Of a DNA stretch of 37,247 nucleotides, positions 34,363 to 36,651 are shown one piece after another. The stretch is from positions 1 to 37,247 of the forward strand of contig SOIH01000218.1 in assembly GCA_004376895.1 (NCBI GenBank). The letters run 5' to 3'. A model generated the notes under the pieces. The model saw nothing but the letters and a program-made list of their open reading frames with translations, made no database searches and was not told where the DNA came from. Each line of letters opens with the position of its first letter. Positions within the stretch are counted from its first letter, which is position 1. Origin of the DNA: Anaerolineales bacterium (lineage in GTDB: Bacteria > Chloroflexota > Anaerolineae > Anaerolineales > E44-bin32). Made by a program: the position numbers and the translations under genes.

Positions 34363-35036
34363 GTGTACGCCCGGCATGGGCGATAGCTAGGAGGTGGAAA
34401 TCCTCTGCGGACGTTGATCCGACGAACCGCTAGCCGAAGGCAACTGCGCTCGTGCGAACGGGTGTGGGAAGGAAGCCGGAGAGCAAAACCTGGACTTGAT
34501 GGACAAAAACTGCGTAAGGAGGCGTGAAGCGCCGGGTGAGCTGGCACGAGACAGTGAAGCCCCAAAAGGATCAAAGCGGCTTTACGTAAACGCAGCGAGG
34601 ATCAGGGGAAAGTTATCGTACCTTATCCGGGGAGATCTGCGGCGTGTCTCGGAATGAGACTGAGGAGATCGAGAGGTCTTCTGACCGCGTCGCAGAAGTC
34701 AGCAGAGGCCGAAGTAGTCGATGGCGTAACGACCATCCTGGGCGAGCAGGGAAACCTGCTTACAGGGCGAAGGGCCGAACGGTCAAGAATTGGGTAGAAG
34801 GCTAGACGGGCAACAGCGAAGACAGTCGAAAACTGGCAAAGACCAGACCAGATACAGAAGTAAACACTGAAGGTGCTAGGTAAGTATCAGGGACGAGAGG
34901 TTGTTACCAGGTCTACCGGAATGAGAAATCACCCAATGCGAAGTTCTGCTTTGCTAACTTGACCGAACCGCCGGATGCGGACCCGCATGTCCGGTGGTGT
35001 GGGAGGGGGGGCCGTGAGGTTTCCCCCTATCCCGAT
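34363..35036 (+). mobile_element. ORF-less group II intron, group IIC-like, inserted behind a terminator
   Basis: The 5' end GTGTACGCCCGGCATGGGCG closely resembles the start of group IIC ribozymes such as the Oceanobacillus intron. Domain III-type CGCAGAAGTCAGCAGAGGCC is at 34691-34710. A domain IV base stem ATTGGGT/ACCCAAT (34789-34795 / 34931-34937) encloses about 135 nt with no reverse transcriptase ORF. Domain V (34965-35000) folds as ACCGCCGG/CCGGTGGT, then ATGCG-GACC-CGCAT, with a CGC catalytic triad. Domain VI follows with GGGAGGGGG paired to CCCCCTATCCC, leaving a candidate bulged A, and the 3' end is CCCGAT. Insertion right after a terminator U-run is the known target preference of group IIC introns. 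Boundaries are accurate to a few bases. Movement or splicing would need a protein encoded elsewhere. Confidence 0.85.
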
Positions 35037-35293: not shown

Positions 35294-35360
35294 AAGGAAC
35301 CTCCTGATCTCAGAGAGATTATCGCGCAGTTTTTGCCGATGACCAAGGCCTGCCCCATAA

Positions 35361-35440
35361 TGTCATTGCGGGCGGAGCGAAGCAATCTCCTCCTTATCTT
35401 GCACGGAGATTGCCACGTCACTTTGTTCCTCGCAATGACA
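35361..35440. repeat. Palindromic repeat element A
   Basis: An 80-nt element with perfect 10-nt terminal inverted repeats, TGTCATTGCG (35361-35370) and CGCAATGACA (35431-35440). Internal arms are partly complementary (GCAATCTCC / GGAGATTGCC). Repeats of the form TGTCATTGCGAGCGAAGCGAAGCAATCTC are, from memory, frequent in Chloroflexota and other environmental bacteria. No ORF is seen; the 598-nt interval 35294-35891 holds four such elements plus a possible promoter. Confidence 0.7.
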
Positions 35441-35468
35441 AGTGTGGGAAGGGTTCTCCAGGATTAAA

Positions 35469-35529
35469 TGTCATTTCGAGTGAGCCGCGCAGCGGCGACC
35501 GAGAAATCCCTGGGATGATACCCATGACA
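35469..35529. repeat. Palindromic repeat element B
   Basis: A 61-nt element starting TGTCAT (35469) and ending ATGACA (35529). Its inner part ATTTCGAGTGAGCCGC pairs imperfectly with GCGGCGACCGAGAAAT around GCA. The stretch ATCCCTGGGATGA recurs in element D. Confidence 0.6.
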
Positions 35530-35564
35530 GCGCCATTCCAATGCACTGGATAGCTGCCCCTTAA

Positions 35565-35661
35565 TGTCATGCTGAACGAAGTGAAGCATCTCGTTCTTCG
35601 TTCATAAGGGTTCTTCCTGCAATGAACGAGATTCTTCGTCGCTCCACTCCTCAGAATGACA
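35565..35661. repeat. Palindromic repeat element C
   Basis: A 97-nt element with near-perfect ends, TGTCATGCTGA and TCAGAATGACA. Inside, CATCTCGTTCTTCGTTCAT and ATGAACGAGATTCTTCGTC are largely complementary, so the RNA or single strand could form a long hairpin. Confidence 0.65.
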
Positions 35662-35674
35662 TCGGCTAGGAACC

Positions 35675-35742
35675 TGTCATCTCGAGTGAGTCCTTCGACT
35701 TCGATCAGGACAAGCCCGGCGACCGAGCAATCCCTGGGATGA
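35675..35742. repeat. Palindromic repeat element D (partial relative of B)
   Basis: Begins TGTCATCTCGAGTGAG and ends GACCGAGCAATCCCTGGGATGA (described here in two short blocks, 35675-35690 and 35721-35742), resembling B at both edges but with a different centre (CCTTCGACTTCGATCAGGACAAG). No terminal ATGACA follows, so it may be truncated or diverged. Confidence 0.5.
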
Positions 35743-35788
35743 ATCTCAAATGGGTCCCTTCTCCGAAAGATATTCTCTCTATTAAGTA

Positions 35789-35817: not shown

Positions 35818-35891
35818 CCTCAGCACTTAAGTAGAAAAACCCATGACAAAGCAGAGAGTTTCAGTAAAACACCTAATGATGTGGAGGAATA

Positions 35892-36128
35892 ATGGTCACT
35901 ATCTCGATTGAATATTGCGCAGCTTGACACTATACAGACCGAGCCATCGGTGCGATGGCAGAACTTTTAAACACCTATGAGTTTAAAATCGGCTCTATAA
36001 AACTCATCCCTGCGGATGGGGGAAAATTTGAGGTCATCGTCGACGACAAGCTGGTGTATTCCAAGCTCGCCACAGGCAGGCATGTGGAGCAGGGGGAGCT
36101 TGCAAAACTTATTGGAGAGGTGCTCTAA
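35892..36128 (+). CDS. SelW/Rdx-family selenoprotein with in-frame TGA (Sec) codon
   Basis: Reading 35892-36128 with the TGA at 35925-35927 as selenocysteine gives 78 residues: MVTISIEYCAAU, then HYTDRAIGAMAELLNTYEF, and later GGKFEVIVDDKLVYSK. This is the Rdx (SelW/SelT-like) thioredoxin fold with its redox motif as C-x-x-U at residues 9-12; mammalian SelW has YCGAU at the same place. The frame is otherwise open and ends in TAA. The ATG has GGAGG 4 nt upstream. A SECIS-like hairpin begins 15 nt after the TGA. Standard ORF calling breaks this gene because of the TGA. TGA is a normal stop in other genes here, so reassignment of TGA is unlikely. Rdx proteins are thought to act in thiol/redox reactions; the partner is unknown. 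It would need SelA, SelB, SelC and SelD, none of which is in the window. Confidence 0.85.
35943..35959 (+). promoter_or_regulatory. Bacterial SECIS-like hairpin
   Basis: GCCATCG (35943-35949) and CGATGGC (35953-35959) form a perfect 7-bp stem with a GTG loop. The loop starts 22 nt after the TGA, within the 16-37 nt known for bacterial SECIS elements, and its first base is the required G. It lies inside the coding region, as bacterial SECIS elements do. Confidence 0.75.
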
Positions 36129-36130
36129 GC

Positions 36131-36205
36131 ATGAGTCGGTATCACTTCAAAAGGATGAATCTTGCCCATGCCTTCGAGCCTGCATTGGGGGAAATAGATA
36201 AATGA
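36131..36205 (+). CDS. 24-codon ORF between the selenoprotein gene and dtd
   Basis: ATG at 36131, two bases after the selenoprotein stop, opens a 24-residue frame reading [20 protein letters not shown] then EIDK. Its TGA (36203-36205) overlaps the dtd start (ATGA). A GGAGAGGTG sequence lies about 9 nt upstream. I know no family for it. It may be a translational-coupling ORF, a small protein or a remnant. Confidence 0.35.
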
Positions 36206-36651
36206 GGGCTGTCCTTCAGCGCGTTCGACGCGGTCGAGTTTCGATTGCCGGCGATACGATCGCCGCGATCGAGCACGGCCTGGTTATCCTGATCGGCGTC
36301 GGGAAAGCCGATACCGCGAGTGAAGCGGAGTGGTTGGCAGAGAAGTGCGCCGTCCTGCGCGTATTTGAAGACGAAAAGGGTAAAACGAATCTATCCGTGC
36401 AGGATGTGGGCGGCGAAGTGCTCGTGGTATCACAGTTCACCCTGTACGCCGACATGCTCAAAGGGCGCCGCCCCAGCTTCATCAACGCCGCCCCTCCGCA
36501 GATCGCCCAACCGCTTGTCGATCATTTCATCGACCATTTGGGAGGATTGGGCGTTTCGGTACAGAAAGGGGTCTTCGGCGCCCATATGCTCGTTGAGATC
36601 GAGAATGATGGTCCGGTAACGATCATTCTTGAGCGTGACCCCCAGTCATAA
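36202..36651 (+). CDS. dtd: D-aminoacyl-tRNA deacylase
   Basis: Removes D-amino acids (and glycine from tRNA-Ala) from mis-charged tRNAs. The 149-aa length is usual. The start [28 protein letters not shown], the [17 protein letters not shown] catalytic motif and, near the end, [10 protein letters not shown], which carries the Gly-cisPro chiral proofreading motif, are all present. The ATG overlaps the preceding 24-codon ORF by four bases. A GGGGGA sequence lies about 9 nt upstream. The gene fits thematically with alaS nearby, as both counter mischarged tRNA, but they are on separate transcripts. Confidence 0.96.

Follow-up and report, generated by a model that had tools for sequence, protein, structure and literature searches.

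Analysis of a 37,247-nucleotide contig from an uncultured Anaerolineales bacterium (SOIH01000218.1 of assembly GCA_004376895.1; hereafter, the window) indicates, with a probability of about 0.97, that positions 35892-36128 constitute a SelW-like selenoprotein gene of the Rdx family, in which an in-frame UGA would be decoded as selenocysteine (Sec) by means of SelB and a hairpin located shortly downstream. The features of the locus are collected in Table 1.

Table 1. Annotated features of the selW locus, in window coordinates
Feature	Position	Strand	Basis
GGAGG, probable Shine-Dalgarno sequence of selW	35883..35887	+	Sequence; GGAG(G)-like motifs before many homologues
selW-like selenoprotein gene (predicted)	35892..36128	+	78 aa with TGA as Sec, TAA end; Pfam Rdx, TIGR02174, order-wide homologues
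UGA predicted to be read as Sec, last residue of C-x-x-U	35925..35927	+	TGA in 35/35 homologues; Cys in distant Chloroflexota
Putative SECIS-type hairpin, 7-bp stem, invariant loop-first G at 35950	35943..35959	+	Fold, covariation, Sec versus Cys contrast
dtd, D-aminoacyl-tRNA deacylase, next gene 3' of selW	36202..36651	+	Pfam Tyr_Deacylase, E 2.6e-55

Reading frame and family assignment

The selW frame opens at ATG 35892, four bases downstream of the GGAGG motif, contains a single TGA and closes at TAA 36126-36128. Translation of this frame with the TGA as U yields 78 residues (MVTISIEYCAAUHYTDRAIGAMAELLNTYEFKIGSIKLIPADGGKFEVIVDDKLVYSKLATGRHVEQGELAKLIGEVL), in which a redox motif near the N-terminus (YCAAU, residues 8-12) is followed by GGKFEV, both being conserved among homologues. 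This is the full-length Rdx protein with a normal stop put forward in the original prediction, and its likeness to SelW is borne out by matches to Pfam Rdx (PF10262; 72.9 bits, E 2.6e-20, cut-off 22.6, profile positions 1-72 of 74) and to NCBIfam TIGR02174 CXXU_selWTH (53.3 bits, cut-off 34.2). Among known structures, the translation matches over about 60-70 residues the Cys-type Rdx proteins Atu0228 (2fa8) and SAV_2001 (3dex), which are homologous but present CxxC in place of CxxU and involve no recoding. The sequence matches in Pfam, NCBIfam and PDB are enough to settle the family, making structure prediction unnecessary. The gene had also been expected to escape conventional ORF calling, and a standard listing of open reading frames of at least 90 residues indeed contains no entry at this locus.

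Conservation of the in-frame TGA

Homologues of selW were detected in 36 of 61 genomes, ranging from genus to order level. Exactly one TGA is present in all 36 order matches that cover the corresponding codon; one further order match, which starts past the codon at the start of its contig, has none. In every one of 35 translated sequences (29 from the order, counting the window's own copy, and six others from public genome contigs) the TGA provides the U of C-x-x-U, and among the order homologues it is conserved down to about 43% identity. Several of these homologues use TGA as their own terminal stop.

At the level of the phylum, an Rdx match was obtained in 186 of 400 Chloroflexota genomes, some matches containing one TGA and others no stop. 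Among the best 30 phylum loci, 23 Sec copies and five Cys copies could be aligned at the motif. In distant Chloroflexota homologues the TGA position is occupied by a Cys codon (TGC/TGT), and the position thus appears as Sec within the order and as Cys farther out.

A complete selenocysteine pathway in the same genome

The assembly harboring selW spans 2.96 Mb in 299 contigs, the window being contig 9, with an estimated 87.5% completeness and 6.1% contamination; the closest relatives that carry a name are metagenome assemblies of Anaerolineales. A search of its contigs identified selA, selB, selC and selD, all on contigs other than the one carrying selW in this fragmented assembly. The selB gene lies on contig C90 (370 bits, cut-off 242) and selA on C65 (463 bits, cut-off 268), where the gene runs into the contig end, while selC was identified on C88 as a tRNA-Sec (72.9 bits, cut-off 47) for which ARAGORN reports the anticodon tca (UCA in RNA). 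Two selD genes are present, on C147 and C130 (392 and 358 bits, cut-off 125), one of which has its own in-frame TGA yielding the usual CAGU motif, a second sign of Sec use by this organism. The Sec-containing selD is the separate gene on C130; alongside it, the C147 copy (L059:64-2097, genome G000) carries Cys instead and follows a class-V aminotransferase (NifS/cysteine desulfurase-like) domain in a fusion.

Within the order, SelW was found in none of the ten genomes that gave no selA, selB or strong tRNA-Sec match, versus 36 of the 51 others (Fisher P = 3.6e-5), a comparison in which the selB test covered just three of the ten negative genomes and the sets were compiled manually from tables. 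Four SelW-bearing relatives are without one sel match, namely selA in G001 and G018 and a strong tRNA-Sec in G003 and G039, which is most simply explained by incompleteness or strict search filters. The presence of all four sel genes, the occurrence of Sec or Cys at the TGA position in homologues and the recurrence of the TGA in tens of independent assemblies each bear on a point at which the original prediction was vulnerable, and none of them refutes it.

A SECIS-type hairpin downstream of the TGA

The hairpin consists of the arms GCCATCG (35943-49) and CGATGGC (35953-59) closing a GTG loop. The perfect 7-bp stem and G-first loop of the original prediction were both recovered; the distance of 22 nt from the TGA given there holds for the start of the loop, the stem itself starting 15 nt after the TGA. 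In the 66 nt from the TGA onwards, the hairpin is the minimum-energy fold (z = -2.5), and five of 200 shuffled sequences fold as well, making fold energy, taken alone, only moderate evidence.

Sec homologues keep the hairpin at the same spacing from the TGA. When the sequences are aligned without gaps on the TGA, the stem positions pair in 91% of cells, compared to at most 55% when the stem is slid by up to 8 positions. Across 31 distinct hairpins, changes on both sides were observed in five of the seven stem pairs, and the covariation score (0.441, versus a shuffle mean of 0.249) was not reached in any of 500 shuffles; this score is inflated by sequence relatedness, and the contrast between Sec and Cys copies is the better control. 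In that contrast, Sec copies retain on average 4.7 of five core pairs, whereas the five Cys copies compared retain 1.6. The first loop base is G in all 31 hairpins, and all 14 sequences with serine at residue 20 use an AGY codon for it and never TCN, and the loop G is therefore preserved. Conservation and covariation over the homologues put the hairpin far beyond chance, and its retention in Sec copies and loss in Cys copies are what one would expect if it is a bacterial SECIS element that SelB recognises. Two Sec-type Rdx loci from outside the order (L064 and L065) keep three of five core pairs at the usual place, and their SECIS may lie elsewhere or be of a different shape.

Alternative readings of the locus

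The source is a single draft metagenome assembly, in which a Cys codon (TGC/TGT) could have turned into TGA through mutation or misreading, leaving a dead or misread gene. The same TGA, however, occurs in every order homologue covering the codon, from about 43% identity upward, the remaining frame is undisturbed and still Rdx-like, and the hairpin shows covariation; recurrence of the TGA across tens of independent assemblies rules out a sequencing error, and the conservation of the codon refutes the pseudogene reading as well, to which we assign a negligible probability. Reassignment of UGA to another amino acid, such as Trp, which would make the TGA an ordinary sense codon, is equally close to nil: no support for it was found, and it is at odds with the window genes, for which table 11 gives long open frames, with the homologues that terminate at TGA, with the replacement of TGA by Cys rather than Trp in distant homologues and with the presence of SelB and a UCA-anticodon tRNA-Sec in the genome.

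That the hairpin might be a by-product of coding constraint on the RAIGAMAE segment, carrying no recoding signal, draws some weight from the location of the stem wholly within conserved codons and from the modest fold z-score, but is nonetheless extremely improbable. The encoded residues vary while the pairing stays, with both-side changes at most stem pairs and a covariation score beyond all shuffles, and the pairing present in Sec homologues is lost in the Cys homologues, of which only five were compared. On this evidence we rejected the coding-constraint explanation, and Sec decoding of the UGA via SelB and the hairpin remains the preferred reading.

Genomic neighbourhood

In most relatives' loci that reach far enough, dtd is located roughly 15-1300 nt downstream of selW. 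It is a neighbour, outside the Sec mechanism. Its frequent position 3' of selW in Anaerolineales and relatives could conceivably reflect a functional link, for instance redox control of translation quality, but we consider this very unlikely; if true, such a link would provide the first concrete role for bacterial SelW-like proteins. A 24-codon ORF between the two genes (36131-36205) was discarded after tblastn returned no match in the relatives' loci.

Upstream of selW, the window contains a group II intron-like RNA of about 590 nt (34448-35036), matching Rfam D1D4-3 (123 bits) and D1D4-1, with Intron_gpII at its 3' end and no reverse transcriptase ORF inside it. A 98% identical 3' fragment is found at the start of contig C63 of the same genome, and its first 71 bases have an 87% match on C12. 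By eye, intergenic near-repeats can also be discerned at 35480-35760 ('gcgaccgagaaatccctgggatga' near 35497 and 'gcgaccgagcaatccctgggatga' near 35720), with other similar stretches around 35360-35660.

Discussion

The gene reported here is a new but ordinary representative of the SelW-like selenoproteins of bacteria (Rdx, PF10262; TIGR02174), a family described about twenty years ago. It shares with them the Rdx fold family, the C-x-x-U motif and an in-frame UGA followed by a SECIS hairpin, and shows no difference in kind, the present copy coming from an uncultured Anaerolineales bacterium. By E-value, its best NCBIfam match is the Campylobacter SelTWH family (NF041051; 70.6 bits, full length), whose equivalog cut-off of 88 bits it does not reach, which places it outside that subfamily. 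SelW-like proteins were the most abundant selenoprotein family of the Sargasso Sea survey (PMC1088965), and their Cys homologues have been described as rare or absent in Sec-using bacteria (PMC1794560); Cys homologues do occur in other Chloroflexota. No paper devoted to selenoproteins of Anaerolineae emerged from a search of a partial literature collection.

In the established bacterial Sec pathway, comprising SelA, SelB, SelC and SelD, SelB acting on a stem-loop brings Sec-tRNA to the UGA (PMC9312934, PMC1794560). By analogy, SelB with GTP and Sec-tRNA(UCA) would bind the selW hairpin just 3' of the UGA, and Sec would be inserted at residue 12, so that the thioredoxin-like product would carry CAAU at its redox site. 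What SelW-like proteins do is described as unclear in PMC1088965, where CxxU is taken to suggest redox activity and an interaction with glutathione is mentioned as reported. Judging from its family, the product is expected to be a small thiol/selenol oxidoreductase of thioredoxin-like type, perhaps with glutathione-type partners.

Standard annotation would split or miss selW, which makes its correction relevant to this genome and to related ones. The gene adds one more uncultured lineage to a known selenoprotein family, and the set of Sec and Cys copies, some having the hairpin and others not, illustrates cleanly how a SECIS within a coding region constrains the protein, down to serine at the loop being encoded by AGY codons alone.
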